A stretch of 43,702 bases of DNA from a virus. How positions within the stretch are numbered: the first letter of the stretch is position 1; each line of letters begins with the position of its first letter. Under the pieces are notes generated by a model that ran no database searches, had not been told where the DNA came from, and saw nothing but the letters and a program-made list of their open reading frames with translations. Below, one piece after another: positions 1,926 through 19,102 of this stretch. The position numbers were made by a program, and so were the translations under genes. The stretch lies in IMG/VR virus record IMGVR_UViG_3300030329_003107, positions 1 through 43,702 of that record; one strand, 5' to 3'.

Positions 1926-1996
1926 GACATATATGTCGGTGTTTTAGGCAGATAGTTGACAGTTATTCGCCAAAAAGTTGGCGAGTTTAGGTAGCA
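1926..1996 (+). promoter_or_regulatory. 71-bp palindrome-rich element, copy A (inverted partner at 18860-18930)
   Basis: It lies in the gap between the small gene ending at 1895 and the gene at 2007. It contains GACATATATGTC (1926-1937, perfect 12-bp palindrome), TTTTAGGCA (942-950 of this kilobase), TCGCCAAAAAGTTGGCGA (1967-1984, 7-bp inverted repeat around AAAG) and TAGGTAGCA (1988-1996). By hand count its reverse complement matches 18860-18930 at 56 of 71 positions without gaps. A TTGACA at 1956-1961 has no matching -10. I infer a protein-binding regulatory site upstream of the 2007 gene. Confidence 0.7.
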
Positions 1997-2006
1997 AAGG
2001 TGTAAG

Positions 2007-2936
2007 ATGTTTGATTTTCTAAAAAGACTATTTACAATTCCCGGAGTTATTCTCCCGGCGATGAAGATGAAGTTGCCAACTCTCAACCTTAATTTCACTA
2101 CGCCAGTGATTATGGGGTGGTCAACTGACCTCCGTATGTATTGGCCTAAATTAAGCATCCCCGGTGGGCCATTGCGCGTTGCGATGACAGCCGCTATACT
2201 TGGGATAGGGATAGCAGGCGGTACATACTTCTTTGCTGCAAAGGGTGTGACCCAAGCACCCACGTATCCAGACGCGGCGGTGTATGATGTAGCGCAGGCG
2301 CAGCGATTGGAACAGAAGCAGATTAATGTAGGTGCGCGTCCAGAACAGGCGACACAAACCTTAAACCTAGTCATAGGTGGCGCGCGTATCAACGAGCTGA
2401 ACTTCGATACAATCAGTGTAGGTAAAGCTACTGGACTGGCAGAGGCGTTAAAGATATCAGGTACTTCAAGCAATACACTGCAATGTGATACTATAACACT
2501 AGACGGTATTGAAGCACCAAGCCTGTGGTTAGGCAATAGTAGTATCCACGAGTTGGAGATAACTGATAATGCTGCTGACGGACTGAGTATAGGCTCTACT
2601 CTGGCGGTAGTAAGCGACATAACTATGGGCAGTACTCGTGGGACAATTAATGTACCAAGCGCAAAGAGTAGCACTTATGACCGTATCATAATTGATACTT
2701 CTGGAGCGGACAGTATATGTAATTCACTGACCCTAAAGGACATTAAAGCATATGGTACATACTCAGGGTACGCGATACACCTAGAGCATATTGATGCAGG
2801 GAAACTAATAATAAAGAACAGTATTATTGGGTCGGGTACAGGTATAGATACGCCAGACTTTACAGTGGCTACCTCTACTAATGTAACCAGCTCAACATTA
2901 ACGAACAACATTGAACGAGCCATCACAATCAAGTAA
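2007..2936 (+). CDS. Membrane-anchored beta-repeat protein, unknown function
   Basis: A 309-residue product starting with ATG, preceded by AAAGGTG. Residues 1-50 are hydrophobic/basic, and a transmembrane helix spans about 57-80 (RVAMTAAILGIGIAGGTYFF). After it the protein is polar, with regularly spaced short beta strands (for example ISVGKATGLAEALKISGTSS, DTITLDGIEAPSLWLGNSS), which suggests a right-handed beta-helix or solenoid. It sits directly downstream of regulatory element A, with the holin-like gene overlapping its end. It could be a membrane-tethered exported protein or a minor tail component. I do not recognise the family. Confidence 0.75.
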   Translation: MFDFLKRLFTIPGVILPAMKMKLPTLNLNFTTPVIMGWSTDLRMYWPKLSIPGGPLRVAMTAAILGIGIAGGTYFFAAKGVTQAPTYPDAAVYDVAQAQRLEQKQINVGARPEQATQTLNLVIGGARINELNFDTISVGKATGLAEALKISGTSSNTLQCDTITLDGIEAPSLWLGNSSIHELEITDNAADGLSIGSTLAVVSDITMGSTRGTINVPSAKSSTYDRIIIDTSGADSICNSLTLKDIKAYGTYSGYAIHLEHIDAGKLIIKNSIIGSGTGIDTPDFTVATSTNVTSSTLTNNIERAITIK

Positions 2937-3156
2937 GACACAGATAACAGGAGCGCAGCTATTAATAGCTATAATCTTCTTTCCTGTAGTAGTTGTATGG
3001 TTAACACTCGCGGCTAGGATTATATGGAGCGCAACTAGCAATGCGGAGACTCTTGATAACATTGAGGGTTTGCTAACAGCTCTGGCGGTACTGACGATTC
3101 CAGTCAGCGCAGGGTTGTCAAAAGTGTTTGAAGCGTTCAGCCAAAATAACGACTAG
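2911..3156 (+). CDS. Small holin-like membrane protein
   Basis: About 81 residues with two transmembrane segments, around 16-40 (LLIAIIFFPVVVVWLTLAAR) and 49-72 (GLLTALAVLTIPVSAGLSKV), and a short polar N-terminus and C-terminus. This topology and size match small holins, and it opens a run of tiny membrane-protein genes. The start is doubtful: the frame opens with TTG at 2911, 26 bases inside the upstream gene, with no strong ribosome-binding site. No endolysin is identified next to it, so the lysis role is inferred from topology alone. Confidence 0.6.
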   Translation: MNEPSQSSKTQITGAQLLIAIIFFPVVVVWLTLAARIIWSATSNAETLDNIEGLLTALAVLTIPVSAGLSKVFEAFSQNND

Positions 3157-3182
3157 ACTTTTGAAGCGAGGTGTGATATAAT
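3154..3182 (+). promoter_or_regulatory. Putative promoter placing an ATG at the start point
   Basis: TATAAT at 3177-3182, with a weak -35 (TAGACT, 3154-3159) at 17 bp. The ATG of the next gene begins at 3189, seven bases past the -10, so transcription would begin at or next to the A of the start codon. AGGG between them is too close to serve as a normal ribosome-binding site. Confidence 0.5.
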
Positions 3183-3188
3183 AGGGAT

Positions 3189-3416
3189 ATGCCAAGTATA
3201 ACTGGAATAGCAGATAAGATTACAGAAGTTTTAAAACATGTCCCAGATGACTTGGATACGCAAGCTCGCTTCAGTGAACTACGTATTAATATGGTAAGAT
3301 TTAAAAGTGATATAGAGACAAGAGAGCAGGCCGAGAGGAGGATAGTAACTGATGTCTTGGACGCCATTAATCATAGCAGTTGTGCTGTGTGTACTACTCT
3401 CCGCTTGGCTTTGTAA
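3189..3416 (+). CDS. Small helical hypothetical protein
   Basis: A 75-residue product with ATG seven bases after a TATAAT box. Residues 5-60 are amphipathic and helical (ITGIADKITEVLKHV, then FKSDIETREQAERRIV). The last 15 residues are overlapped by another frame that encodes a membrane peptide, and the tail SSCAVCTTLRLAL looks less constrained. No family recognised. Confidence 0.6.
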   Translation: MPSITGIADKITEVLKHVPDDLDTQARFSELRINMVRFKSDIETREQAERRIVTDVLDAINHSSCAVCTTLRLAL

Positions 3417-3432
3417 AGAGGAGAGACCATGA
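3352..3432 (+). CDS. 26-residue single-pass membrane peptide
   Basis: The frame reads MSWTPLIIAVVLCVLLSAWL then CKEERP: an N-terminal transmembrane helix with a short charged tail. GAGGAG lies about 10 bases upstream of the ATG. It overlaps the end of the 75-residue gene in another frame, and its TGA overlaps the ATG at 3429 (ATGA). A Cys follows the helix, but the residues before it do not make a good lipobox. It may be a spanin-like or other lysis-associated peptide. Confidence 0.5.
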   Translation: MSWTPLIIAVVLCVLLSAWLCKEERP

Positions 3433-3806
3433 TTACAATTTGTAACGGCCCACTAACAGGACGCGGAGACCAAGCCTTGGTTATACAGACCCCAGAGGGT
3501 GATAGCAAGGGCATGGATGTAGCAGGCATTCTAGAGACTGCTTGTTACTACCGCGCCAATATGGATGCGCAGGCAGATACGGCTGACCTCGCTACGATGC
3601 GGAAATTAAATAAAATTCTGGATGCGGTAGAGAAGCCTGACTGTTGCGTGGAAATAGAGGACGACCAGTACGAACTGATTCGCCCTACAGTAGAAGAGAT
3701 AGTTACACGCAGTTGGACTATACACGCTCCTGCGGTCATTGACCAATTGGAGAAATATGAAAACGGCTGTGCCGATAACTGCGATAGTTGCGATAGCGGC
3801 GATTGA
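3429..3806 (+). CDS. Hypothetical acidic protein
   Basis: A 125-residue product; ATG preceded by GAGGAGAGACC. The sequence is acidic, with Cys residues clustered at the C-terminus (CADNCDSCDSGD) and a CC pair near the middle, which could bind metal. No fold recognised. It overlaps the next small membrane gene by about 50 bases. Confidence 0.7.
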   Translation: MITICNGPLTGRGDQALVIQTPEGDSKGMDVAGILETACYYRANMDAQADTADLATMRKLNKILDAVEKPDCCVEIEDDQYELIRPTVEEIVTRSWTIHAPAVIDQLEKYENGCADNCDSCDSGD

Positions 3807-3924
3807 GCTTTATGCTCTTTCGTTAGGAATAAATGGACACCTCATGATGATGACTATGGGCTTGATAGCCCTCATCGCAGGGGTGAAGATAAGGGACTGG
3901 TGGGATAACCGTGGCCCGAACTAG
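3757..3924 (+). CDS. Small two-helix membrane protein
   Basis: About 55 residues from the ATG at 3757 (MKTAVPITAIVAIAAIELY); six codons upstream there is another ATG at 3739. Two transmembrane helices, about 3-20 and 27-46, are separated by a short loop, with a basic/aromatic tail (KIRDWWDNRGPN). The size and topology again fit a holin or antiholin. GGAG lies just before the ATG. It overlaps the next gene's start by 14 bases. Confidence 0.6.
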   Translation: MKTAVPITAIVAIAAIELYALSLGINGHLMMMTMGLIALIAGVKIRDWWDNRGPN

Positions 3925-5218
3925 AACACAACTTAGACAAATGACTGTAGACCAGTTGGAAGTACCCCAGATTGCTGGGACTGCTGAAAGTAGTGGTGGT
4001 AGCACAAGCACACTGAAGGATACAGACCTCCAACGATTTGGTGATAATGACCTTATCGGTGGATGGTTGTATCTAACTAGTGGTTCTACTACCCCGGCGG
4101 TAAGCCTGAGAATAACGGACAATGTACAGAGTACAGGAGTTGCTACGTTCAGACCTACCCAATCAGCTACAACCAACAACCTCACCTATGAGGTACTGCC
4201 CTACGAGGCAGACGCAATACACACAGCTATTAATGAAGCAATGGACGAGCTGTACGATAGTGGTACGCTGGTTAGGAACATATGGCTAGACCATTGGGTA
4301 ACTGGCTCACCTATCTACAACTCGACATTCGAGTATTGGGACGGCACAGCAACCGTGGATGGCTGGACTGTGGGGACGACTTCGGCTTCACGACTCAGCT
4401 ATTCATCAGACCATATAGTCCCTAGCCAGAATGCGGTGCGGCTTGCCGCGGCAGGGACACTAACCTTAGACGATAAGTATGCCCAGTTCTTACAGGACTT
4501 GTCTGGTGATACAGTAACATTGAGAGCATGGGTACGTTCGAGTACAGCAAGCAACTCGCGTGCGCAACTGATTGTAGATGGTAGCGTAGTGGCGAGTACT
4601 TCTTATCACTCAGGTGATGGGCAGTGGGAAATGGTGAGTGCCGATGGATATGGTATCGCGAGTACGGCTACTAAGATTACTGTACGGTTACAGAATAGTG
4701 AGGCACAGACAGGAGACTTCGGAGCAGTGTGGCTTGAGGGAGGCACGAGGATACGAGAGTATCCGTTCCCTATTGGTCTGGCTCCTAACGGCCCTGACTC
4801 TATCTTTAGTTATCATGTGGATATGGACGAAGGCAACAACGTAAGTACTGTTAATGCTAGGAAGTTAGATGGTGTAAGATTTGGGTTTAATAAATACCGC
4901 TATTCTACGGACGAGCTTGGTGTAATAGAATTGCAGTCTCGCCCACAGGCGCAACAAGTATTGCGTATGCCTACATCCGTACCCCTTACACTACCATCCG
5001 CGAACACTGATTCGGTAGAGGTTAACAGAGTAGATAGTTTATTAATATGCAAGATGGCAGCAGCCAAGTTACTAATCAAGGACATGATGCATGGCCCGGC
5101 CTCATACAGGCAGCGTGCTTCTGAACGCTCAAATATCCTAATGCAAGAAGTTAGACAGCTTGCAGAGGGTAGAGGTTCTACTTCTGGTAACACTGCTCCT
5201 CTTGCCCCTACGTGGTAA
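3911..5218 (+). CDS. Virion protein with carbohydrate-binding-like domain (putative head-tail connector)
   Basis: A 435-residue product starting at GTG 3911 (MARTRTQLRQMTVDQL). The N-terminal 120 residues resemble phage head-completion/adaptor-type proteins: a short Arg-rich start, a beta region (GGWLYLTSGSTTPAVSLRI), then the helix ADAIHTAINEAMDELYDSG. Residues about 135-285 form a beta-sandwich-like segment (FEYWDGTATVDGWTVG, later VTLRAWVRSSTASNSRAQL) typical of carbohydrate-binding modules on virions. The C-terminus is helical (LLICKMAAAKLLIKDMM). It directly precedes the large tail gene. The connector role is inferred from position. Confidence 0.65.
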   Translation: MARTRTQLRQMTVDQLEVPQIAGTAESSGGSTSTLKDTDLQRFGDNDLIGGWLYLTSGSTTPAVSLRITDNVQSTGVATFRPTQSATTNNLTYEVLPYEADAIHTAINEAMDELYDSGTLVRNIWLDHWVTGSPIYNSTFEYWDGTATVDGWTVGTTSASRLSYSSDHIVPSQNAVRLAAAGTLTLDDKYAQFLQDLSGDTVTLRAWVRSSTASNSRAQLIVDGSVVASTSYHSGDGQWEMVSADGYGIASTATKITVRLQNSEAQTGDFGAVWLEGGTRIREYPFPIGLAPNGPDSIFSYHVDMDEGNNVSTVNARKLDGVRFGFNKYRYSTDELGVIELQSRPQAQQVLRMPTSVPLTLPSANTDSVEVNRVDSLLICKMAAAKLLIKDMMHGPASYRQRASERSNILMQEVRQLAEGRGSTSGNTAPLAPTW

Positions 5219-7720
5219 ATGCGTAACATAATATTACAGGACAAAGTTAGTTCTCCTAGCACAGAACTACAACTCGTTGTTGACGAGGAAGAAGGTGGCA
5301 TAGAAAGGTGGCGCGAGTTCCGCGCTCCCAAGCTGCCACCCAGACGTACTCAAGGCGCACTGACCGTATCAGAACAAGACCCATTAATTGACTTCACATG
5401 GGCGCAAGATGATTGGTCAGATGGTGCGCTACGCCCATACTATCGAGAAGGCGATAGAAAGTACGCGCTCGCTAAAGGTGTAGATGCACGTTGGGAAGGC
5501 GTGCTGTCATTGGGCATGGAGCAGAGCGCGCCAATGGACTACCTTATCAGGGGTATGCGTGCTGAGCAGTCGGCTGATGTTTCTGTATGGACTACTGATG
5601 GTTCGGATACCAACCCCACACTCACAAGACAGACATCGGAAGTAGAAAGTGGTAGTTACTCTTATCAATTTACAGTAACTACGGCTAGTGGTCAGGACAG
5701 TTACATACTGCAGAACCTAACCAATCCTGAACTCTACCGAGGCAGGCAACTAATTGTAGGATGTTGGATAAAGACTGCAACTTTAGGCAGCAGCTTCGCT
5801 CCTAACATATACATTAAGGACAGTGCTGGCACAACATCAGGTACAGCTATCACAGCATCTGACCAGAACTGGACATTTGTATCAGCTACCAGAACTATTG
5901 ATGCTAGTGCATCGTTTGTTAGGATTATGATTGGTGATGATGATACTGCTACTGGTGCTACTACTTGCACATTTTACTTTGACAGTATATCGGTACAGGT
6001 GGATGGCTCCAACGATGACGTATGTGTTGGTATGGCTACTGACGGTGGTAAAATATACCATGCGCAGGGGCCAGTAGTAGCTGAATGGAATGAGCAGAAC
6101 GATGTTTGGGATGCTGTATACATACATGCGAGTGCGAAAGCTACTGATATAATACACTTTGGTAACCAGATATGGGTAGCCTTTGGGTATGGTGACAACT
6201 ACATATACGGCAGTGGTACTTCATGGACTGTTAGTTCTCTTACTGACGAACTGGCACATGCCAAGTACTTTGCAACTGCTCGTAACAATGCAGGCGAGAT
6301 GGCGTTATGGAAAACAGAGACTGCTAATACTATAAAGTCATCCACTAACCCTGCTGGTAGCTGGAGCAGTGCATATACTATTGGCTCGGCAGATAGAACT
6401 ATTACCGCACTCCATACATGCTTCGACACAATACTTGTTGGTAAAGAAGATGGACTGTGGCAGTACAGTAGAACTTATGCAGGTACTGCGAGTGCTGAGA
6501 ATGTGTTCATGCCCATGTTTACAGAATGGGATAAGGGTGTAAACACTGATAACTTTTCAGTCGGGCAGGAGTGGCATGGCTTCTTCTATACAACAGCAGC
6601 ATCGCAGTCATTAATACGTTGGTCGCCGGGCCAGCTACAGGACATAACATCTCTTATCCTACAGCCTAGGATACCGGGATATGGTGGCGAGGTTAGAGCT
6701 ATGGTAGCTGCGCCTCACGAGCTATGGATTGCTGCGGACATACCTGAGACTGCGGAAGCAGGGGTGTTCTCAGACTTCCCATTGCAAATGACAGCGACCA
6801 GCAAGATGACAAAGTTAATATCTCTACGCATGGACTCTCAAGGACAGTTCAATATACACACACTGGATGAGGTAAACTTCGGTGAGATAGATGCCATGCA
6901 TGTATATACAGATACAACTACAGGACATCGCTATATAGTTATGGGTGGTCGTTTGAATAGGGCAGGTACTGACGCAGACCATGCACAGTTATTTAGATGG
7001 CAGTTACCTGTACGTTCTGCCGCGCCATTCATTGATGCGGAGACACCACTAACTACATCAGGAGAATTTGATACATCAGTATGGCACGGCGGTGTACCGG
7101 GTACTAGCAAAGCATTCTTAAAGGCAGTGTTCTGGGTAGACAAACTTGATGCTCAATCTACTGGCAACAACAGAAAGATAACTGTGAAGTATGGGTTAGA
7201 TGGTGAAGATAGTGAGACCTACACACTTGGTACTATCTACATGGACAACTCTAGCGACAGGGTAAAGACGCTTTATTTTAATGACGCTACTGTTACTACT
7301 GGGGGAGCTACTATAAATCCCTTAACGCAAGCCGTAGGGCGGTCTATTCAGATGAGATTCTCTTTCGCTACTGACGATGGGGCAGACACTGACCCACCTA
7401 GAATGTTTGCGTTTGAGATACACAGCACACTTAGACCTAAGAAGCTGAGAACGTGGGAAGTATATGTCAGGATTGGCGAGGACATGATGCAAGAAACTGG
7501 GTACTACCAGCCTGTATCAAAGACCAAGCAACTCACTGACTTGGACACGCTTGAAGACCAAGTGTTCCCTATATACATGAAGCATACCTATGATGGGCAT
7601 GCAGGGTTTGATGAGGAAGCATCACTTAACTGCACGATTGTTGATAGAGAACGAGTCTCTATTGGTGACGAGTATGAGATACACAAAATAGTACTACAGG
7701 AGGTAGATACAAGTGCCTAA
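5219..7720 (+). CDS. Large tail protein (putative nozzle / tail-tube-like component)
   Basis: An 833-residue product. The ATG directly follows the previous stop. Residues 1-110 form an adaptor-like start (RREF-type segment GGIERWREFRAPKLPPR). About 115-260 is a beta-sandwich with the same style as the domain in the preceding gene (SYSYQFTVTTASGQDSYILQ, RQLIVGCWIKTATLG). About 265-480 has repeating beta blades with aromatic turns (GGKIYHAQGPVVAEWNEQ, HFGNQIWVAFGYG), a propeller-like pattern seen in podoviral nozzle proteins. The C-terminus is mostly beta. The match is by architecture and gene order, not by a specific motif. Confidence 0.65.
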   Translation: MRNIILQDKVSSPSTELQLVVDEEEGGIERWREFRAPKLPPRRTQGALTVSEQDPLIDFTWAQDDWSDGALRPYYREGDRKYALAKGVDARWEGVLSLGMEQSAPMDYLIRGMRAEQSADVSVWTTDGSDTNPTLTRQTSEVESGSYSYQFTVTTASGQDSYILQNLTNPELYRGRQLIVGCWIKTATLGSSFAPNIYIKDSAGTTSGTAITASDQNWTFVSATRTIDASASFVRIMIGDDDTATGATTCTFYFDSISVQVDGSNDDVCVGMATDGGKIYHAQGPVVAEWNEQNDVWDAVYIHASAKATDIIHFGNQIWVAFGYGDNYIYGSGTSWTVSSLTDELAHAKYFATARNNAGEMALWKTETANTIKSSTNPAGSWSSAYTIGSADRTITALHTCFDTILVGKEDGLWQYSRTYAGTASAENVFMPMFTEWDKGVNTDNFSVGQEWHGFFYTTAASQSLIRWSPGQLQDITSLILQPRIPGYGGEVRAMVAAPHELWIAADIPETAEAGVFSDFPLQMTATSKMTKLISLRMDSQGQFNIHTLDEVNFGEIDAMHVYTDTTTGHRYIVMGGRLNRAGTDADHAQLFRWQLPVRSAAPFIDAETPLTTSGEFDTSVWHGGVPGTSKAFLKAVFWVDKLDAQSTGNNRKITVKYGLDGEDSETYTLGTIYMDNSSDRVKTLYFNDATVTTGGATINPLTQAVGRSIQMRFSFATDDGADTDPPRMFAFEIHSTLRPKKLRTWEVYVRIGEDMMQETGYYQPVSKTKQLTDLDTLEDQVFPIYMKHTYDGHAGFDEEASLNCTIVDRERVSIGDEYEIHKIVLQEVDTSA

Positions 7721-7769
7721 AGGAAAAGGAACATACGGAAGTAAGCGCGGAAGACCGCCTAAGAAGTAA
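7713..7769 (+). CDS. 18-residue basic micro-protein
   Basis: A GTG-started frame encoding MPKGKGTYGSKRGRPPKK. AGGAGG at 7698-7703 is 9 bases upstream, and the start overlaps the stop of the large tail gene. The GRPPKK end is AT-hook-like, and half of the residues are basic or Gly/Pro. I recall very similar tiny proteins next to structural genes in other marine phages, but cannot confirm it. Its end overlaps the convergent minus-strand reading frame by 11 bases. Confidence 0.65.
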   Translation: MPKGKGTYGSKRGRPPKK

Positions 7770-8031
7770 ATTTCTTCCTATACAAATTGTGACAGAAGGC
7801 ATCTGAGCCGGGGTTCAAACCACCTATACCGAAACCACTGCATAAATAATTGCTGTTCAGTTTCATGTAGGTAGCCGACCCACAGATACAACAGTATCCT
7901 TTCTCAGGTGCGCTCCTGTAGTCCTTGAGCCAATGCAACTATGCTTGCCGTTTAGGGCATCCAGACCTCATATGTGTAGCGTCTGGCCCTCTGGTTGTGG
8001 GCTTATGGACATACACCTTACCGAATCGCAT
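7759..8031 (-). pseudogene. Small zinc-ribbon gene split by an in-frame amber codon
   Basis: The minus frame opens at ATG 8031 (GGAGGT six bases upstream) and encodes 30 residues ending SGCPKRQA, then TAG at 7941-7939, and continues in the same phase to a second TAG at 7761-7759. The downstream 59 codons begin with TTG and contain EKGYCCICGSATYMK with later single Cys residues (NYLCSG, DAFCHN), a zinc-ribbon pattern. It is either a gene broken by a nonsense change, two coupled micro-genes (the second using TTG), or an amber read-through. Amber ends other genes here, so general recoding is unlikely. It is the last frame of the leftward operon. Confidence 0.5.
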
Positions 8032-8065
8032 CAGTGTACCTCCACTCGCGCCACATAAATGGCAT

Positions 8066-8347
8066 CTAATCGGGGAATACGATTTCATTTAAATCATCTA
8101 ACACTGCAGTGACTGCAGCAACGACATCAGGGTATGTGTCAATACCTACAGTCGTAGTAAGTATATCTCCATTGTCATAAAATGTTGACTTGATGTCATC
8201 CCTCTCATTATTTACCACATCAATTACTAACCGGGCTACGCCGGGGTGAGCATGGAACAATCCACATGGCGTTCCCTTCACCCCCAGACGTACCCTTTCA
8301 AGTGCTACCCCACAGTTGGGGCAGTGATTATCCTTTAATATCTTCAC
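8066..8347 (-). CDS. Small zinc-ribbon hypothetical protein
   Basis: A 93-residue product. The N-terminus carries CPNCG (residues 9-13), one half of a zinc ribbon; the second half could include the Cys at about 28 (TPCGLFHAHP) with nearby His. The remainder is mixed alpha/beta and acidic. It overlaps the upstream gene by 20 bases, as is usual in this operon. A strong promoter-like sequence lies about 90 bases upstream, inside the preceding gene. Confidence 0.7.
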   Translation of the reverse strand: MKILKDNHCPNCGVALERVRLGVKGTPCGLFHAHPGVARLVIDVVNNERDDIKSTFYDNGDILTTTVGIDTYPDVVAAVTAVLDDLNEIVFPD

Positions 8348-8633: not shown

Positions 8634-8772
8634 TCTCCCTCCTCAATATTTGTTCTTGTTCCCAGTATTCATGGGCTATGGTAAATTGTCCGTCATTCCA
8701 TGCCCTCTGGAACCTCTCTCTATGTACGTTTGCTGCTTCTCTCATTTGGTGTAAGGCTTCATCTCTGCCCAA
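8587..8772 (-). CDS. Small helical hypothetical protein
   Basis: A 61-residue product, almost entirely charged helix (EALHQMREAANVHRERFQRA, then YWEQEQILRREIDK). The ATG overlaps the end of the DNA polymerase gene by 31 bases. No homology is recognised; the size and charge are typical of phage regulatory or inhibitor peptides. Confidence 0.6.
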   Translation of the reverse strand: MGRDEALHQMREAANVHRERFQRAWNDGQFTIAHEYWEQEQILRREIDKFTDSQRQGVRVT

Positions 8773-11108: not shown

Positions 11109-11292
11109 ACGTTTCTATAACCATGTGTTCGATGGACATGGAGGGCCAGACATAACTGGTATGCTCATCTGGTTTCTCCATGTTGTGCTGTATGATACTC
11201 AAGAAACCGGGGACTCCTATTGGGTCAACTGCCTCCACATCATTGACCTTAATGAAGTCCTCGACATCTCTTAACTTAATTAGTACGTTCAC
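11050..11292 (-). CDS. Small hypothetical protein upstream of the polymerase
   Basis: An 80-residue product starting with ATG. The N-terminus (MNVLIKLRDVEDFIKVNDVE) looks like a beta-strand then helix; the centre contains VWPSMSIEHMVIE. Its last 59 bases overlap the polymerase start in another frame, and its own start overlaps the stop of the SSB-like gene. No family recognised. Context suggests a replication accessory or an unrelated small early gene. Confidence 0.65.
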   Translation of the reverse strand: MNVLIKLRDVEDFIKVNDVEAVDPIGVPGFLSIIQHNMEKPDEHTSYVWPSMSIEHMVIETFEGERFEHATTPRWFKQMP

Positions 11293-12664: not shown

Positions 12665-13433
12665 CGTATTCCTCCTCGTAATATTTCTCGCTAATTATAC
12701 CATCAACATCCGCACCAGTCAACCACCCTCTACAAATTTGTTGGTAGTCACACCAGTTACAGAGTGGAGAGAAATGGTGAATCGGTGACGCACCCTTCTC
12801 TCGTATCTCAGTTCCCAATCTTATCATATCTTTACCAGCGTTGTCAATAGCTTCTGTCGAAATCAAAACTCTGCCACCTTCGAGATGTTCTGACTGCGTA
12901 CTCCAGAGAATATGTTGGCGGTAGAACGGCAGTCCTGCTAACCAATCATATCCCTGTCTCAATAGCCACGCGTACCGTACAGGCTGTATTCCCCACTCCT
13001 CATAGTTGAGCAGTTTCTTCATCATACCTGCACCTTTCTCGGAACACGTTTTGAACTCGTATATAATTACCCCTTCATCAGTCACAGTCCATAGGTCTGG
13101 TTTCCCTACGTAGGTAATTTCGTCCATGACTACTTCTATTTTGTCCTCTGCCACAGGTATCTCAACATCGAGTAGCCACGAGGGTACATCTTTCAGCATC
13201 CTCAGTACACCCGGCTTGAACCTGTTGCCATCCTCTAGTATCTCATGTGTGTAGTCGAAAGCATTGCGCATGTCCTTAGTCATTAGCGCACGCTCAAGCG
13301 AATCATGAAATGTAGTACCAGATGTCAAAGGGCCGGACGGTTTATAGTCGTACTCTTTTAGTCTCCTACCTCTGTATATATATTTAACTTGGCACTCTTG
13401 CCAGTTATCCAGTGCCGTTACGCTCGTGCGCAT
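12654..13433 (-). CDS. Cas4/RecB-like PD-(D/E)XK nuclease with iron-sulfur Cys residues
   Basis: A 259-residue product. The N-terminal Cys (WQECQVKYIYRG, about 14) and the C-terminal cluster CNWCDYQQICRG (about 216-227) give the four Cys that bind a 4Fe-4S cluster in Cas4/AddB-type nucleases. The catalytic elements are visible: GTTFHDSLE (His), TYVGKPDLW (Asp) and YEFKTCS (E-x-K). It is expected to trim DNA ends during recombination or replication. It overlaps the ATPase gene by 11 bases. There is no CRISPR array in the window, so this is a phage recombination nuclease, not an adaptation gene. Confidence 0.88.
   Translation of the reverse strand: MRTSVTALDNWQECQVKYIYRGRRLKEYDYKPSGPLTSGTTFHDSLERALMTKDMRNAFDYTHEILEDGNRFKPGVLRMLKDVPSWLLDVEIPVAEDKIEVVMDEITYVGKPDLWTVTDEGVIIYEFKTCSEKGAGMMKKLLNYEEWGIQPVRYAWLLRQGYDWLAGLPFYRQHILWSTQSEHLEGGRVLISTEAIDNAGKDMIRLGTEIREKGASPIHHFSPLCNWCDYQQICRGWLTGADVDGIISEKYYEEEYVAH
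12694..12722 (-). promoter_or_regulatory. Sigma70-like promoter inside the nuclease gene
   Basis: On the minus strand TTGACT (12722-12717) and a perfect TATAAT (12699-12694) are 17 bp apart. The predicted start point is near 12687, about 23 bases upstream of the Sak4-like ATG at 12664. It would give the ATPase-SSB-polymerase part its own transcript. Confidence 0.6.
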
Positions 13434-14133
13434 GTGTTAGCTCCTCTAGTGCTGTGCGCTGTCTTATATTCAGACCTGCGTCCAGCCACCCTTCCTCTGT
13501 ATCAAATAATAATTCTCTTAAATCACCCTCGTAATGTGCGTGTAGCTTCTTGGCAGTAGAGGGGCCGACTCCTTCAATCATGCGCTGTACTGCACGCTGA
13601 AAGTGAGTGTCCCCCTTCACCTTCTGGTCAGTGCCTGATACGATACTGAACAGATGCCTTCCCGGCTGTAAAACATTACGCGCTCTTCGTAGTGTCTTGA
13701 GCAGCGAGTCCTCTCCATAGGGCAGTAGTATTATGCCACCTCGTAGTGACCACTTCAGTAATTCTATTGGCATACTGAGACTACCTAACTGCCACCAGTG
13801 AGGTGTGAACCCTCTTCGTCCTGTGAATCTGAGTCCGAGTAGAGGGATATCCACTGCTTTTTCAAGTTTGCGGAGCTGTCTTTGAAGCCTTCTACTTCGT
13901 AGTGAGGAACCCAAATCTCCCGGTTTCTTTTCCTCGATACCCACGGTGAGGCCACTAGGTGTAACCATGACATAATCCCCCTCGGTGAGCTGGGCGACCA
14001 GTACCTTGTTGCGCCTCGACTGTCTGATATATTCAGCAACGTCCTGACGACCATCCACGAAAATGGTGTCTTCATTGCCCAGTAGTGTCCCATCGCTGTA
14101 TAGCTCTCCGTTCCTTACTTCGTACACGTTCAC
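13405..14133 (-). CDS. ERCC4/XPF-type nuclease with helix-hairpin-helix
   Basis: A 242-residue product. An ERCC4 domain occupies about 20-150: DTIFVDGRQDV, AQLTEGDYVMV, then the catalytic-type stretch VGIEEKKPGDLGSSL, matching the family E-R-K-x3-D pattern with K in place of R. A helix-hairpin-helix follows (IEGVGPSTAKKLHAHY, about 190-205). This is the XPF/Mus81 layout for cutting branched DNA, for example Holliday or flap structures. The frame opens at GTG 14133, but the GTG at 14127 has a better-spaced GAGGAG. It overlaps the downstream Cas4-like gene by 29 bases. Confidence 0.82.
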   Translation of the reverse strand: MNVYEVRNGELYSDGTLLGNEDTIFVDGRQDVAEYIRQSRRNKVLVAQLTEGDYVMVTPSGLTVGIEEKKPGDLGSSLRSRRLQRQLRKLEKAVDIPLLGLRFTGRRGFTPHWWQLGSLSMPIELLKWSLRGGIILLPYGEDSLLKTLRRARNVLQPGRHLFSIVSGTDQKVKGDTHFQRAVQRMIEGVGPSTAKKLHAHYEGDLRELLFDTEEGWLDAGLNIRQRTALEELTHAHERNGTG

Positions 14134-14218
14134 TCCTCTTCTTATAATATCTTTCCAGATTAGTACTCCTCTTTACTTTCTTAGCGCGCTTTGCATCACG
14201 CCGTTGCCACTTTTCCAC
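14072..14218 (-). CDS. 48-residue strongly basic small protein
   Basis: GTG at 14218, with GGGAG eight bases upstream. The product starts MEKWQRRDAKRAKKVKRS and stays basic (LERYYKKRSERVRSKERRA). It overlaps the end of the upstream zinc-finger gene and the first 60 bases of the ERCC4 gene in other frames. The good ribosome-binding site and the extreme charge make it worth calling, and nucleic-acid binding is likely. It could still be a chance frame. Confidence 0.45.
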   Translation of the reverse strand: MEKWQRRDAKRAKKVKRSTNLERYYKKRSERVRSKERRAIQRWDTTGQ

Positions 14219-14495
14219 TCATAAACTCCCACGGTATACATCCGTCATTATACTCTACTTTAGGTACTGAGCCTGCAAAATTAAATTGTTTACACGCTAT
14301 TCTTTTGTATAGAGTTTTACTTATTACCGTATTTGTAATCATTAACTCTTCGCAGCAATTTATACATAGCTGTACTGTATCTTCTTCATTAACCCTTAGT
14401 CCCACCGTCCAGTCGAGCCGGGGCTTTACACATGATACACAGTCTCTGCTTTTACCTATGTTTGGGTCGTAGTTAACTCTTTTCTTTTTAGTCAT
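14196..14495 (-). CDS. Small zinc-finger protein
   Basis: About 99 residues from the ATG at 14495 (MTKKKRVNYDPNIGK); the frame could open five codons earlier at 14510. CVSC and CINCCEEL give a four-Cys zinc site around residues 20-50. The start overlaps the upstream stop by eight bases. The function is not known; such proteins are common in phage early operons and may bind nucleic acid or protein partners. Confidence 0.7.
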   Translation of the reverse strand: MTKKKRVNYDPNIGKSRDCVSCVKPRLDWTVGLRVNEEDTVQLCINCCEELMITNTVISKTLYKRIACKQFNFAGSVPKVEYNDGCIPWEFMSGKVATA

Positions 14496-14724
14496 CGAAC
14501 TCGTTCTCAATACCTGCTAGTTTCTCTAAAGCAGCAGCTATTCTAAACAGCCCTGTACCAATAGTCTGCATGTATATATCAAACTGCATCCCTGCTTCTA
14601 TTTCTACAAATCCCTTTCTAGGCTGTACTTCCACCTGTAGAGGTGTCCAGCTACTGTCATAAGTACTCGTCCCATGTATTCCTATAGTTCCAAACACTTC
14701 TCTCTCTTCTTCAGTTCTTGCCAT
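14488..14724 (-). CDS. Small hypothetical protein
   Basis: A 78-residue product; ATG shortly after the stop of the membrane-protein gene. It is mixed alpha/beta: PLQVEVQPRKGFVEIEAGM reads as beta strands, and FRIAAALEKLAGIENEFDD as a C-terminal acidic helix. No family recognised. It has conserved spacing with its neighbours in the leftward operon. Confidence 0.65.
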   Translation of the reverse strand: MARTEEEREVFGTIGIHGTSTYDSSWTPLQVEVQPRKGFVEIEAGMQFDIYMQTIGTGLFRIAAALEKLAGIENEFDD

Positions 14725-14725
14725 T

Positions 14726-14890
14726 TTACTCTCCCTCTAGTAATTTCATACCTAGTGCTATGACACCACCTACGCAGCCAGTGACTATACTTATAAATTC
14801 TTTATCACCATTAAGTATAGCCATAACACTAACTAATCCCAGTATACACAAGGCCACTATAATTTGTATTCTTATTTTTCCTATATTCAT
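14726..14890 (-). CDS. 54-residue two-helix membrane protein
   Basis: ATG at 14890; the start overlaps the stop of the helicase gene (ATGA). The first helix is about 6-26 (RIQIIVALCILGLVSVMAIL) and the second about 31-48 (FISIVTGCVGGVIALGMKL), with a short charged end. The frame is uninterrupted and the translation start is coupled, so it is probably real. It could be a holin-like protein or a small inner-membrane protein expressed early. Confidence 0.65.
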   Translation of the reverse strand: MNIGKIRIQIIVALCILGLVSVMAILNGDKEFISIVTGCVGGVIALGMKLLEGE

Positions 14891-15846
14891 TTCTTCTCAA
14901 TCCATTCAATCATTTTAGCACGTTTATCTCCTGCGTTCATATACTCCCTTATTATCTTATCTTCAACTAATTTCTGTCTATATCTACCTGCTGACCTAGC
15001 TGCTTTACCTCCTTGCATTATCAATGCTGTATCTACTTCTTTCCTAGTCCTCGGCCCATCTCGTAATACTTTGTACACGAGTTGTTTAGGGTCGCTTTCT
15101 GACTCCACCAGTATACCACTATCCGAGTCAAAACGCAACCATTTTTCCAACGGTTCCGGGCCATGTCTAACTTTCTCCCAAGATATCTCTATAGTATTCT
15201 TCTCAATACCTCGTGGGTTGTTAAGCCTAATCACGGTATCAGTCCATCCATTCAAGCCACTCCAGCCTCTAAGGTTTTCTGCTCCCTTATAGAGAACACC
15301 ATCACCTGAGTACACACCCTTCCTAGCATGATGGACGAGACCAATACCGCAGTCTGCATGCGTACTGAGCAGGTCAAGTCCCTGCAAGAAGTTACGCATT
15401 GCTTTGTCATCTACTTCACTGCCCGGCAGTAGCTGTGATAGTGGGTCAAGGAATATAAAGTCTGCCTCACTCCTCTCTACAGCATCGGCGAGGTCTTGCC
15501 AACTCTGCTCATTACGTAGACTGAAGTCTCTCGTATATGAGGTCGAGAAGTTTTCGGCTTCACCATAGAACGTGTGCATCTTAGCTGCTCTGTCTTGCAG
15601 CCTACGCTCTACGATTTCTGCTTGCATGTAAAGAACTTTAATTTTATTATGTACTTCATATCCTAACCAATCATCACCCAATGCTAACGAGTAACACAAC
15701 TGCATTACTGCGAATGACTTAAAACTACCCGGCGCGCCGTATATAACTAGCCTGCCTTTGGGTACTATCAAACCATCTCCAAGCAGTGAAGGTATCTCAT
15801 CTATTTTTCTATTTATTAAGTCGTCTATCTGTTCTACTTCAATCAT
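14887..15846 (-). CDS. RepA-like replicative helicase (AAA_25 / RecA-fold)
   Basis: About 319 residues from ATG 15846, which overlaps the upstream stop (ATGATTGA); the frame also opens at GTG 15912, but coupling favours the ATG. Walker A is IYGAPGSFKSFA, Walker B is ADFIFLDPLSQL, and a conserved motif reads GIGLVHHARKG, as in RSF1010 RepA-type hexameric helicases. A C-terminal winged-helix-like segment follows (YKVLRDGPRTRKEVDTALIM). It would unwind DNA ahead of the PolA-type polymerase. No separate primase is recognised in the window. Confidence 0.85.
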   Translation of the reverse strand: MIEVEQIDDLINRKIDEIPSLLGDGLIVPKGRLVIYGAPGSFKSFAVMQLCYSLALGDDWLGYEVHNKIKVLYMQAEIVERRLQDRAAKMHTFYGEAENFSTSYTRDFSLRNEQSWQDLADAVERSEADFIFLDPLSQLLPGSEVDDKAMRNFLQGLDLLSTHADCGIGLVHHARKGVYSGDGVLYKGAENLRGWSGLNGWTDTVIRLNNPRGIEKNTIEISWEKVRHGPEPLEKWLRFDSDSGILVESESDPKQLVYKVLRDGPRTRKEVDTALIMQGGKAARSAGRYRQKLVEDKIIREYMNAGDKRAKMIEWIEKK

Positions 15847-16087
15847 CGTATTCGTGGTATCCGCATGTAGGGCATACCCACTCACCGTACCAATCCCTGT
15901 AAAGTTTACCACAATTCCGTTTGCACCTCTTTACATGAACACGGACACGAGGTATTGCAACCTTCGTATACTGAATCTTCGCAGGAACACCACGCAACCC
16001 TACTGCAGTCTTCTCCAAAGCAGTCACATCGGATGCTGTGACGACAGTAACATCTTTCATCATCTCCACTATATCCACACACCTCAC
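15839..16087 (-). CDS. Zinc-ribbon protein (overlapping frame pair with 15906-16103)
   Basis: The C-terminal half reads VPRVRVHVKRC-type strands and then CKRNCGKLYRDWYGEWVCPT plus CG: a clear four-Cys zinc ribbon. The frame opens at GTG 16087 with a poor ribosome-binding site; the ATG-ATG pair further in (MMKDVTVV) is an alternative. Its stop TGA overlaps the helicase ATG. A second Cys-rich frame overlaps most of it, so either both are coding or the true product is formed by a frameshift between them. Confidence 0.6.
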   Translation of the reverse strand: MRCVDIVEMMKDVTVVTASDVTALEKTAVGLRGVPAKIQYTKVAIPRVRVHVKRCKRNCGKLYRDWYGEWVCPTCGYHEYDD

Positions 16088-16103
16088 AGTCGTCTATCCG
16101 CAT
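15906..16103 (-). CDS. Cys-rich overlapping reading frame
   Basis: A 65-residue product with 14 Cys. ATG at 16103 has GGAGG four bases upstream. The N-terminal part (DDCEVCGYSGDDERCYC) resembles a zinc knuckle; the rest (SCPCSCKEVQTELW) looks like an out-of-frame reading of the neighbour. It has the better start signal of the two overlapping frames, while the other has the better C-terminus. Confidence 0.45.
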   Translation of the reverse strand: MRIDDCEVCGYSGDDERCYCRHSIRCDCFGEDCSRVAWCSCEDSVYEGCNTSCPCSCKEVQTELW

Positions 16104-16176
16104 ATATCCTCCATGCGATAAACACCATGCAAACTAATATACCTGCGCTGATTGGATTAATATCCGACATGTTCAT
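16084..16176 (-). CDS. 30-residue single-pass membrane peptide
   Basis: ATG at 16176 with AGGAGA seven bases upstream. It reads MNMSDINPISAGILVCMVFI then AWRIYADRRL: one transmembrane helix with a basic end. It overlaps the upstream zinc-finger gene's stop and the start of the next Cys-rich frame. Function unknown. Confidence 0.55.
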   Translation of the reverse strand: MNMSDINPISAGILVCMVFIAWRIYADRRL

Positions 16177-16417
16177 AAAACTTTCTCCTACTCATTCTCT
16201 TACTTTTATACTCGTGTCCGAATACTGCATTGGCGCAGTTGTAACACCATCGGAATGCGTCACCTCGATAGTCAAAGATACCCAACACACGCACCTTGTC
16301 ACATGCATCACAGTTAAACTTAGGATTCCTACGTCTATCTTTATCATGATGTGCTATGTCAAGGCGGCGCATCAGGTGTCTATCTAACATACCACTTACT
16401 ATATCTAATAATCCCAT
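16157..16417 (-). CDS. Small zinc-finger protein
   Basis: An 86-residue product; ATG overlaps the upstream stop (TAATG). CDAC (residues 36-39) and CYNC (58-61) give a four-Cys zinc site, and the N-terminus is an amphipathic helix with His and Arg (LDRHLMRRLDIAHHDKD). The basic tail (KSKRMSRRKFYEHVGY) suggests nucleic-acid contact. It is one of several tiny zinc proteins in this operon. Confidence 0.7.
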   Translation of the reverse strand: MGLLDIVSGMLDRHLMRRLDIAHHDKDRRRNPKFNCDACDKVRVLGIFDYRGDAFRWCYNCANAVFGHEYKSKRMSRRKFYEHVGY

Positions 16418-16668
16418 TATTCCTCCTTCTCGTATACTGGAACTAGTGTTGTACCACCGTCTTCAGTTATGGACATATCCCACGCATCATACTCTAATAT
16501 ATCAACGTCCACCGAGGTATATCCATACTCACACTTGTTTTCATCCTGTGCTATATAAACGTACTTCATATCCTCGGCAGCTTTGTCAATTGCGTCCTCT
16601 TCGGACTCGGCTTCGACATAATACCACAAGTCCACTCGCGCTGTCAACTGGACTTGGAAATGTTTCAT
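16417..16668 (-). CDS. Small hypothetical protein (beta-strand plus acidic helix)
   Basis: About 83 residues from the ATG at 16668 (MKHFQVQLTARVDLWYYVEA); a start at 16680 or further upstream is possible. The pattern of a beta hairpin, then VEAESEEDAIDKAAED, then an aromatic strand is a common small phage-protein layout of unknown role. The C-terminus is acidic. It overlaps nothing important if the 16668 start is right; upstream starts would overlap the previous gene. Confidence 0.65.
   Translation of the reverse strand: MKHFQVQLTARVDLWYYVEAESEEDAIDKAAEDMKYVYIAQDENKCEYGYTSVDVDILEYDAWDMSITEDGGTTLVPVYEKEE
16618..16647 (-). promoter_or_regulatory. Possible intragenic promoter
   Basis: On the minus strand TTGACA (16647-16642) and TATTAT (16623-16618) are separated by 18 bp, inside the small gene just described. 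The -35 is perfect and the -10 is 5 of 6. It would drive the zinc-finger and helicase genes downstream. Position inside a coding region lowers confidence. Confidence 0.35.
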
Positions 16669-16672
16669 TCTG

Positions 16673-17116
16673 TCACCCATATGCACACTCCCCACATCGC
16701 ATGCCACCTTGGACTCTAGCGTCATCGGGTCGTAACTCACCACACTCGCCACAAAATTTGATTATTGGTTTTGCGAATTGCATTGCATCAAATAACTCAC
16801 TTGCAATATCCCATGCTTTATCAAACTCACCAGCATCATTGTAGTTCTGCATAGAGTCGGCGTAGTATGTCAATAGCCACTCGTCAATATGACCGCGCCC
16901 CCAGTTTTTATTAATATTCTGGAATGCTTTTACCAAGTCATCGGTGTACGGAAACTTTCTTTGTCCGAGTGTCATGTTATACCAATCTTCATCATCTAAA
17001 TAAGTGTCCATGTAGTGACATAATGCGCCTCCCACGCAGAAACCGAAGTCGCTGCGTGAGGCTCGGCGTATTTGCCCATAGTAGTAGTTTCTAATTTCTT
17101 CAACTAGTGCGTTCAT
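16673..17116 (-). CDS. Hypothetical protein with C-terminal zinc ribbon
   Basis: A 147-residue product. The N-terminal two thirds are helical with many aromatics (EEIRNYYYGQIRRASRSDF, then VKAFQNINKNWGRGHIDEWL). The C-terminus has FCGECGE and RCGECA, a zinc ribbon at about 120-145. The ATG overlaps the upstream TGA (ATGA). I do not recognise the helical part. Confidence 0.7.
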   Translation of the reverse strand: MNALVEEIRNYYYGQIRRASRSDFGFCVGGALCHYMDTYLDDEDWYNMTLGQRKFPYTDDLVKAFQNINKNWGRGHIDEWLLTYYADSMQNYNDAGEFDKAWDIASELFDAMQFAKPIIKFCGECGELRPDDARVQGGMRCGECAYG

Positions 17117-17271
17117 TCTGTCTCCTCTATCAGCTCTATTGAAACTTCATTTTCGTCTACTTCAAGACAGTATGCAAAGAACTCAGCTTCCTCTTCATAA
17201 TCAAACTCCAGTACCTTACCGCTACTCGTTGTATATACCTTACCGTCTATTAATAATTTATACACAGTCAT
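17113..17271 (-). CDS. 52-residue acidic hypothetical protein
   Basis: ATG at 17271, preceded by GGGGGA; its TGA overlaps the next ATG. It starts MTVYKLLIDGKVYTTSSGKV, a beta hairpin, and ends in an acidic stretch (EFDYEEEAEFFAYCLEVDEN). Short, but the coupling at both ends supports it. No family recognised. Confidence 0.65.
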   Translation of the reverse strand: MTVYKLLIDGKVYTTSSGKVLEFDYEEEAEFFAYCLEVDENEVSIELIEETE

Positions 17272-17446
17272 TTCCCCCATATGCTTCTATCGTGTAGCCT
17301 CCGGCGATACTCGCATACTCTGCAGGTATCACCATCTGCACCTCTAAATACCCATCATCGGATTGTATCTTGCAATACCAATCATCCGAGTAGTAGTGCT
17401 TCAGCAGTGTCTCAAGCTCTAAGAAGAATACTTGTTGTTCAGTCAT
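17258..17446 (-). CDS. Small hypothetical protein
   Basis: A 62-residue product beginning MTEQQVFFLELETLLKHYY. An N-terminal helix is followed by beta strands (WYCKIQSDDGYLEVQMVIP). ATG overlaps the upstream stop by one base. No domain recognised. Confidence 0.65.
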   Translation of the reverse strand: MTEQQVFFLELETLLKHYYSDDWYCKIQSDDGYLEVQMVIPAEYASIAGGYTIEAYGGNDCV

Positions 17447-17868
17447 TAAAGTCCTCCTGTATGTTTAACCTTCGGAGCAGGGGCGCGGAACTCTGGTTCA
17501 CCATCGTCACCAATTACCTCTACCCATCCCTGTGGTGGGGTGTATCCTACACCAACAGCCCACGCATTAATAGCATCTATGCAGTAGAATTGCTGTGTTG
17601 AGCCTACTGCGCCCTGTCTACCTGTGCCACTCACGTAGATGCCACTCCTACTAGGTAGCCCTTTCTGGTTACGTTTAACTAGCAAGGTTGTATCGCTGAT
17701 ACCCCATATGTACTCAACCCACGGCCCCCTAATCATGGTCTCACCGCACTCATAGCACAACGGAGCGAGTACACCCTTGTCATTCCATGTGCGCCTGTTT
17801 AAATTCTTCCTTTTTCTCTGAATATCTAAATGGCTCATAAATCCTGTGTCTGTATGTCGTTCTGTCAT
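17446..17868 (-). CDS. Hypothetical protein with CxxC
   Basis: About 140 residues from ATG 17868, which overlaps the upstream TAA (TAATG) with GGAGAA at good distance; four codons upstream is another ATG. CYECGE (around residue 38) is half of a zinc site, with no clear partner pair. The C-terminal half is Gly/Pro-rich beta (YTPPQGWVEVIGDDGEPEFR). Function unknown. Confidence 0.68.
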   Translation of the reverse strand: MTERHTDTGFMSHLDIQRKRKNLNRRTWNDKGVLAPLCYECGETMIRGPWVEYIWGISDTTLLVKRNQKGLPSRSGIYVSGTGRQGAVGSTQQFYCIDAINAWAVGVGYTPPQGWVEVIGDDGEPEFRAPAPKVKHTGGL

Positions 17869-18227
17869 TATCTTCTCCAACTAAAATTAATATGTGAATT
17901 TGCTTCATCGGGTTCGCCACGAATTGCGAAAACCGTGCCACCCATCGAAATTAATACTTCTTCTTGTCCTTCCTCTAGTAATACTTTAGCCATCGCCTTT
18001 ATAATTACCGACACCGCCGGGTTAGTAGAGATGAAGGAGAGAGCGTGCAAGTCCTCCTGCACAGTCTCCCCTGCGGAATTAATCCACACCCCTGTTACAG
18101 GTGTTTCGGTCATACGTCCTGTAATAGAGACTATCTCACCAATGTGGGCGTCTATAGCGTCACTCACAGCTTCACAGGGTATCCATATCATGTACTCAAC
18201 CCCTAACTCAGCTTGCGTTAGCTGCAT
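17868..18227 (-). CDS. Hypothetical protein
   Basis: About 119 residues from ATG 18227 (MQLTQAELGVEYMIWIPCEA); the open frame extends a little upstream. It is beta-rich (IGEIVSITGRMTETPVTGVW, EVLISMGGTVFAIRGEPD), resembling a small OB- or SH3-like barrel, but I cannot assign a family. It overlaps the upstream coiled-coil gene by about 20 bases. Confidence 0.65.
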   Translation of the reverse strand: MQLTQAELGVEYMIWIPCEAVSDAIDAHIGEIVSITGRMTETPVTGVWINSAGETVQEDLHALSFISTNPAVSVIIKAMAKVLLEEGQEEVLISMGGTVFAIRGEPDEANSHINFSWRR

Positions 18228-18477
18228 CGTTACGCTCCTTGTTGATGGCACTCTCTAGCCTGTATACCAACTCTTCAAGCTGTCCTGAAGCCTCTTGGAT
18301 AGCTGACTCGGCTACTGATATCTCAGACTCAGCATTACTAACGTAATATGCCAAGTCAGATATCTGACCATAAACACCATCTATATATGACGAAGCCTCA
18401 TCTACCTGCGATTGCGCCTCGCTAATAGCTTTCAAGTGTATCTCCAACTCTTTTATGTCATAGTATCTATTTATCAT
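18208..18477 (-). CDS. Small coiled-coil protein
   Basis: About 89 residues from ATG 18477, with AGGAG seven bases upstream. Nearly the whole protein is a heptad-patterned helix (EIHLKAISEAQSQVDEASSY, ISVAESAIQEASGQLEELV). It is the second gene of the leftward operon. The role is unknown; coiled-coil oligomerisation is all that can be said. Confidence 0.65.
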   Translation of the reverse strand: MINRYYDIKELEIHLKAISEAQSQVDEASSYIDGVYGQISDLAYYVSNAESEISVAESAIQEASGQLEELVYRLESAINKERNDAANAS

Positions 18478-18508
18478 ATTCATTCTCCTGCTCCTATACT
18501 TGTATGAA

Positions 18509-18688
18509 CTATTTAAGCCAGTCATTAATACTATCTATATGTACCTCCTCTACCTCTAGCCAATCATCATACTCATCAGGGTACATAAGATTCCACTCTG
18601 CAAGAGCTTCCTCTACTGCTTCTAATTCATATAATGCACTATCATATGAGCCACTTACCTGCATATCTATCGTAAATTCTTTTTCCAT
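18509..18688 (-). CDS. First gene of the leftward operon, small acidic protein
   Basis: A 59-residue product with ATG 18688 and AGGAG just upstream, about 33 bases after the predicted start point of the leftward promoter. It begins MEKEFTIDMQVSGSYDSALY and is strongly acidic after that (VEEALAEWNLMYPDEYDDWL). Being first and acidic, it could be an early inhibitor or DNA-mimic type protein, but there is no motif to prove it. Confidence 0.65.
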   Translation of the reverse strand: MEKEFTIDMQVSGSYDSALYELEAVEEALAEWNLMYPDEYDDWLEVEEVHIDSINDWLK

Positions 18689-18727
18689 TTTTCGCTCCTA
18701 TAAACTAGATTTCTCGACCGCCAGACA

Positions 18728-18756
18728 ATTCTATCGCAGCTCGGTGCGTTGGTCAA
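18728..18756 (-). promoter_or_regulatory. Leftward promoter PL
   Basis: On the minus strand TTGACC (18756-18751) and TAGAAT (18733-18728) are 17 bp apart, each 5 of 6 to consensus. The predicted start near 18721 is 33 bases upstream of the first leftward ATG. It faces away from a rightward promoter whose -35 is 34 bases off, and TTCATGAA (18770-18777) lies between them. Confidence 0.75.
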
Positions 18757-18790
18757 TCCTGTTCTTTTATTCATGAAAAAAACTTCAGTA

Positions 18791-18819
18791 TTGACTAGCC
18801 TGTCGCAGTTTGGTAGTAT
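18791..18819 (+). promoter_or_regulatory. Rightward promoter PR
   Basis: TTGACT (18791-18796), 17-bp spacer, TAGTAT (18814-18819). The predicted start is about 18826. A terminator-like hairpin ends at 19032, so the main product may be an RNA of about 0.2 kb that contains element B. An ATG at 18827 sits at the start point, but the frame behind it runs through the terminator. Confidence 0.65.
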
Positions 18820-18859
18820 TGAAAGCATGAAATTCCGACCGACATATACCCGACATATA

Positions 18860-18930
18860 TGCTACCTACGTTCGCCAAAATTTTGGCAACTAATTGGCGA
18901 GTATGTGCCTAAAATGGCGACATATATGTC
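18860..18930 (-). promoter_or_regulatory. 71-bp palindrome-rich element, copy B (inverted relative to 1926-1996)
   Basis: It has the same ordered blocks as copy A, on the opposite strand: TGCTACCTA (18860-18868), GCCAAAATTTTGGC (18874-18887, perfect 14-bp palindrome), TGCCTAAAA (18906-18914) and GACATATATGTC (18919-18930, perfect). Just to its left, two more half-copies of the last motif occur (CCGACATATACCCGACATAT). It lies downstream of PR and upstream of PL, so it could bind a regulator affecting both, or belong to a replication origin. Confidence 0.7.
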
Positions 18931-18991
18931 GTTTGCGGTATTATATATATGTATTCATATAATTAATACCCTAACAGCCAATCCGATGGAA

Positions 18992-19032: not shown

Positions 19033-19045
19033 CGGGCTGTCGATG

Positions 19046-19079: not shown

Positions 19080-19102
19080 AAGGAAAAAATTGGAACCCCG
19101 GA

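Follow-up and report, generated by a model that had tools for sequence, protein, structure and literature searches.

A conserved, inverted pair of dyad-bearing DNA elements in a marine phage group, tentatively read as replication-initiator sites

The complete IMG/VR record IMGVR_UViG_3300030329_003107, a marine phage sequence of 43,702 bases that was analysed over its whole length (hereafter the window), carries two copies of a palindrome-containing DNA element, which lie about 17 kb apart in opposite orientation. The genes of the window fall into three blocks: 1) a leftward operon running from about 18.7 to 8.7 kb, which codes for a PolA-type polymerase, an AAA_25 helicase, a Sak4-like protein, an exonuclease and an ERCC4-domain protein; 2) a rightward late block from 19.4 kb to the end of the record, which includes the terminase and the major head protein and, were the genome circular or permuted, would extend as far as 1.9 kb; 3) another rightward block, spanning 2007 to about 8.75 kb. 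Copy 1 of the element (1926-1996) is situated between the late block and the 2007 block, upstream of the gene for a 309-residue membrane protein (2007-2936, plus strand) that is the first of a rightward unit ending near 8754. Copy 2 (18860-18930) is situated in the control region that divides the leftward replication operon from the rightward late block.

An ungapped comparison of 1926-1996 with the reverse complement of 18860-18930 gave exactly 56 identities in 71 positions, bearing out the hand count of the original prediction, whereas the second-best inverted 71-mer match in the window, between two adjacent stretches, reaches only 47/71 and leaves the element pair far ahead. A repeat search lengthened the pair to 98 nt with 77% identity (1906-2003 and 18853-18950). 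Both of the shared palindromes that had been proposed are present: GACATATATGTC has just two exact matches in the window (1926-1937 and 18919-18930), and the second occurs as CGCCAAAAAGTTGGCG in copy 1 (1968-1983), a form not seen in relatives, and as the related GCCAAAATTTTGGC in copy 2 (18874-18887). Beyond these 71 positions, an AT-rich dyad also belongs to the element. In copy 1 this is CATCTTAATATA-AATAGTA-TATATaTAAGATG on the plus strand (1888-1919), which overlaps the stop codon of the gene at 1647-1895, and in copy 2 it is GGTATTAATTATATG-AATA-CATATATATAATACC on the minus strand (18937-18970). Away from its dyad, copy 1 continues with GACATATATGTC, which is part of a genome-specific 25-bp box, a TTTTAGGCA box (1942-1950, plus strand), the second palindrome, and a TAGGTAGCA box (1988-1996, plus strand) that runs into the ribosome-binding site of gene 2007. 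Copy 2 likewise continues with the GACATATATGTC box, a TTTTAGGCAC box (18905-18914, minus strand), its own palindrome and a TAGGTAGCA box (18860-18868, minus strand), the palindromes having no strand of their own.

Among GenBank phages we found no close relative of the 43.7-kb record and no nucleotide match for the stretch tested, and the terminase of the window is only about 24% identical to its best match there. No terminase relatives were found in bacterial genomes, so a host was not assigned. Relatives of the phage are present in IMG/VR, and they contain related sequence at both places, upstream of the homologue of gene 2007 and in the divergent region. The two loci are found together in three genomes only, namely the window, G022 (42.4 kb) and G032 (35.5 kb), most of the other relatives being fragments. 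G022 and G032 are syntenic with the window and have exactly two copies each, inverted, 17.0-17.1 kb apart and at the same gene positions; hence the pair, its placement and its inverted orientation are conserved in all three genomes. The like orientation of each copy towards the genes downstream of it, as claimed from the window, also holds and is conserved in these two relatives. A scan with a rule requiring an AT hairpin and, after it, a TAGG-like box recovered two matches each in G022 (13856, plus; 30897, minus) and G032 (3666, plus; 20790, minus) and none in G004, G025, G019 and G029. The rule was formulated with these copies already in view, and its stem requirement is too strict for the bulged copies of the window and for the relative L094; being derived from known copies, it informs on number, place and specificity rather than providing independent discovery.

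When the two copies of a genome were compared with each other in the same orientation, their similarity stood well above that of shuffled copies (z = 20.5, 8.8 and 7.4 for the window, G022 and G032, respectively); in the opposite orientation the corresponding values were 3.5, 1.2 and 0.1. Within a genome the two copies also resemble each other over 25-28 bp whose sequence differs from genome to genome. A TAGGCAC or near-TAGGCAC box is found 25-29 nt from the dyad in most copies, with the similar box being on the other strand (GTGCC) in L103 and L094 and replaced by TAGCTA in L098, and a second box resembling TAGG.AGCA is located at the far end of most copies. TGTC(A/G) motifs are enriched in the copies from the window, G022 and L094 and absent from those of G032 and L121. 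The exact AT/GACA pattern was recovered among relatives only in G022 and L098, its remaining matches lying in unrelated contexts.

The dyads have arms of 9-15 nt around centres of 3-9 nt. Their arms vary from site to site, even within one genome, but stay complementary: the window has CATCTTA/TAAGATG in copy 1 and GGTATTA/TAATACC in copy 2, G022 has CTAATATAT/ATATATTAG and TACTTATAT/ATATAAGTA, and L121 has CACTAGTATA/TATACTAGTG. Across nine dyads, with the bulged copy 1 of the window left out, we counted 86 Watson-Crick pairs, no G-T pairs and 2 mismatches. The pairs were taken from the hairpin of each copy itself because a MAFFT alignment of the dyads shifts the 5' arm. As the arms change and yet pair, it appears that base pairing in the DNA is what has been kept, rather than a fixed arm sequence. 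The ungapped hairpin surpasses the best of 60 shuffles in 9 of the 15 copies, and that of L016 is above the shuffle mean and below the shuffle maximum.

A coding origin of the element had been left open, given that the copies read as the similar peptides CYLRSPKFW and CYLNSPTFW. The similarity of the peptides stands. However, no frame is kept among the copies of the relatives and the likeness is therefore best seen as a by-product of the DNA repeat. Moreover, a 145-residue open reading frame has no relative, and the matches of an antisense open reading frame of 260 residues to relatives are confined to the part lying opposite gene 2007 and, two weak hits apart, do not reach the element; accordingly, we reject a coding origin. 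It is scarcely credible that the pair reflects chance similarity, a host repeat or a gene remnant. Short palindromes do arise easily in AT-rich sequence, but here two copies occupy the same places in three genomes and no reading frame is conserved. Further, the copy-2 region has no match in GenBank phages, copy 1 has none in plasmids and the exact core pattern of the element has none in other viral contigs, which runs counter to its being a common host repeat or a fragment of a known gene family. Rfam models and a tRNA search also returned nothing in the window.

Several features surround copy 2 in the control region. All promoter calls given here are consensus matches, and some of the promoters in relatives have weak hexamers and were found by eye only. 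In the window a predicted sigma70-like promoter for the leftward replication operon (TTGACC-17-TAGAAT; 18728-18756, minus strand) is followed by a rightward one that reads into copy 2 (TTGACT-17-TAGTAT; 18791-18819, plus strand) and by a third that would serve the rightward unit (TTGACT-17-TAAAAT; 19230-19258, plus strand). Counterparts of the promoter reading into copy 2 were discerned by eye at the same place in G022, G032 and L094. The three TTCATGAA sites of the window, beginning at 18770, 19133 and 19180 (span 18770-19187), also have equivalents in relatives, in which the common order comprises the leftward promoter, a TTCATGAA or related site, the rightward promoter into the element and further TTCATGAA sites beyond. 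Judging by this arrangement, they are probably operators of a conserved regulator. A possible terminator after the rightward promoter (GGCACTC..GAGTGTC-TTTTT, within 18827-19043) was noticed by eye, and in L094, L100, L103 and L121 the conserved promoter appears, again by eye, to lead into small open reading frames that are unrelated in sequence and have a good ribosome-binding site. To the right of the copy-2 dyad lies a pair of 13-nt direct repeats of TATTCATTGTCGC, 21 bp apart (19046-19079, plus strand). Such pairs recur at this position in relatives, 21-30 bp apart and with a different sequence in most genomes, G022 and L098 having the same repeats. Their identity is 13/13 in the window, 12/13 in G022 and L121, and 11/13 in G032 and L098, and in these five only 0 to 5 of 200 shuffles are as good (none in the window), while those of L094 are not significant (42/200).

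In one alternative the copies would form an operator or promoter pair, at which a phage regulator acting on the genome-specific box would jointly control the leftward replication operon via copy 2 and the 2007 unit via copy 1. Each copy is upstream of an operon in the same orientation, copy 1 runs up to the ribosome-binding site of gene 2007, and palindromic boxes that are common within a genome and different between genomes resemble coevolving operators. Nevertheless, about 100 bp separate copy 2 from the predicted leftward promoter, which has TTCATGAA sites of its own, no conserved -35/-10 pair could be made out by eye inside the element, and the proposal leaves unexplained why the two dyads of a genome have different arms. 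We hence consider it possible but on the whole unlikely.

The rightward promoter beside copy 2 raises a further alternative, namely that it gives rise to an antisense RNA that would pair with the 2007 mRNA leader and so block translation. In addition to the conservation of this predicted promoter, the duplex between the copy-2 RNA and the copy-1 leader scores z = -16.4 in the window, -6.5 in G022 and -4.6 in G032, and the lowest z for any given copy 1 is that with its cognate partner. However, any shared element in inverted orientation would be complementary, and the G022 leader pairs nearly as well with the partners from the window (z = -6.4) and L094 (z = -5.7). In the four relatives with a small open reading frame the RNA seems, by eye, to open with this frame and its ribosome-binding site, and the dyads are devoid of the G-T pairs of typical RNA stems. 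Taken together, these points make an antisense RNA improbable. Other RNA-based or transcriptional precedents were also considered. The lambda nutL/nutR and HK022 put sites come as two copies in opposite orientation, each combining a hairpin with a short linear box, and are in this respect similar to the element. Antitermination sites of this kind were rejected, given that the leader expected from the predicted leftward promoter starts downstream of copy 2 and does not include it, and that the dyads lack RNA-typical G-T pairs. Phage N4 uses hairpin promoters recognized by its virion RNA polymerase, and the window phage resembles it in having DNA hairpins that precede transcription units, as well as a giant virion-type protein. 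This candidate was set aside as a simple motif search recognized no T7/N4-type motif in the giant proteins.

The giant protein of the window brings in recombination. A tyrosine-recombinase-like domain (30664-31347, plus strand) is embedded in a 2505-residue protein (open reading frame 29689-37206), which is encoded two genes before the head protein and, by its size and place only, looks like an internal virion protein. The large proteins of G019, G022, G025 and G032 contain the domain at the corresponding position, and its residues R52, R173 and H196 are invariant in 5/5. Pfam Phage_integrase scored above the cut-off in G019 and G022 and with E = 2.1e-5 in the window. A sequence search alone with the excised domain recovered no relative among solved structures; Foldseek, using a model of pLDDT (predicted local distance difference test) 66, gave tyrosine recombinases as all 50 of the matches listed, the best with E = 0.006. 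The main text of a survey of polyvalent proteins does not use the words recombinase or integrase (PMC5512222).

By this sequence evidence the phage would encode a tyrosine recombinase, as is expected of an inversion system, and the copies might be a site pair at whose dyad cores it acts, either inverting the intervening DNA or working on each site with its own copy in circularization or multimer resolution. The domain itself is real by Pfam, the invariant R/R/H and the Foldseek matches listed; it is present in 4/4 element-bearing genomes that cover that part of the protein (window, G022, G032 and G025), and the dyad arms and centres resemble core sites. Against this, Pfam has no match for the G025 and G032 domains, and the link between domain and site is a prediction. 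Seven copy-1 and five copy-2 contexts from different contigs all have the same flanks and none is flipped. Further, the centres differ between the copies within the window, G022 (GTTATATGT versus TTATTACAT) and G032, as do the outer arms. The single arrangement in 12 contexts and the unequal centres make inversion between the copies unlikely, and frequent inversion is not supported; each site might still be acted on singly. Overall, we regard a recombination site pair as improbable, if marginally less so than the antisense RNA. A more specific version is more doubtful still: the dyads could be attC-like folded-hairpin sites for the recombinase of the virion protein, which would be delivered with the DNA and act on the entering genome in circularization, resolution or a switch of replication mode, the unequal centres preventing inversion. 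Integron attC sites, acted on as folded hairpins by the tyrosine recombinase IntI, keep their structure while their sequence changes (PMC2727003), which is similar to the dyads in a phage that also has a recombinase-like domain; but the window phage shows no cassettes, attI partner or recombinants, and the connection of the domain with the sites is putative. If a virion-embedded recombinase does act at the dyads, it would represent a new way for a phage to process DNA at entry.

Together, the above facts point to a pair of DNA sites bound by a fast-changing phage protein. Among the functions listed in the original prediction (operator, paired origins or recombination sites) we favour origins and retain operators, frequent inversion having dropped out. 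Specifically, we propose that the two copies are matched cis-acting sites for one phage-encoded DNA-binding protein, most likely a replication initiator, and place the probability of this at about 0.4. The nearest precedent, on account of which we commit to paired initiator sites, is phage SPP1 (44 kb), with two origins about 13 kb apart that each comprise direct repeats and an AT-rich region; one of these is in a late-gene intergenic region and the replication switch uses a recombinase and an exonuclease (PMC6316719, PMC3485210). Like SPP1 oriL/oriR, which are bound by gp38 (G38P), the window has two distant sites of like organization in a phage of about 44 kb, with an AT-rich part (the AT dyads) at both, and with short repeats. 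One site is near the replication genes and the other intergenic among late genes, and the phage encodes an annealing or recombination protein and an exonuclease (PMC6316719, PMC3485210). The location of copy 2 beside the operon for the PolA-type polymerase, helicase, Sak4-like recombinase, exonuclease and ERCC4-type nuclease was also counted in favour of an origin. The window differs from SPP1 in that its sites are 17 kb apart and inverted, have a compensating dyad and show direct repeats beside copy 2 only; further, no gp38 relative was identified in the window phage, which belongs to another lineage and has another polymerase.

In the scheme that we infer, the main origin would be copy 2, which lies in the control region with direct repeats at its side, and the oppositely oriented copy 1, between two late-gene blocks, would serve either as another origin or as a barrier to forks with the initiator bound to it. 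The initiator would bind the genome-specific box beside the dyad, the AT dyad might then melt or extrude as a hairpin, and the replicative helicase would be loaded. Forks meeting the second site later could help the switch to recombination-dependent synthesis of concatemers, which would use the Sak4-like protein and the exonuclease. A candidate origin helicase is the AAA_25 helicase-type protein of the adjoining operon (14887-15912, minus strand), whose C-terminus is winged-helix-like by eye and conserved in four relatives.

Several observations weigh against this proposal. The direct repeats flank copy 2 and are missing from copy 1, and no initiator was identified. The GC skew turns at copy 2 and not at copy 1, but as it follows gene direction it is no evidence for an origin either way. 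That both sites are oriented alike relative to an operon would suit an operator just as well. Copy 1 is only a short AT tract in L089 (G029) and is weak in L013/G025. Relative to 60 shuffles the ungapped hairpin is not strong in copy 1 of the window, L013, L094, L097 and L089, and in the first three of these it is no better than the shuffles; a short, AT-rich dyad could acquire some of its pairing easily. If the sites are indeed an origin pair, they would show where replication starts in a marine phage group that this analysis met in metagenomes only, and would provide an SPP1-like two-site switch of replication, open to testing, in another lineage. The box, which changes fast and yet in step at both sites of each genome, would also offer a natural series for the study of protein-site coevolution.

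Elsewhere in the leftward operon, the minus strand between 14196 and 17880 encodes several small proteins that contain CxxC pairs and look like zinc ribbons by eye; they showed no family matches where tested. In the unit after copy 1, the proteins p435 and p833 had no useful match among solved structures. At the right end of the window, an open frame of 995 codons (40718-43702) runs off the end. Positions 1-300 repeat 42866-43165 (85%) and positions 705-897 repeat 43510-43702 (79%); from these repeats, 40718-43702 and 1-1647 probably represent a single, internally repetitive long fibre gene, or else two paralogues, broken by the ends of the record.

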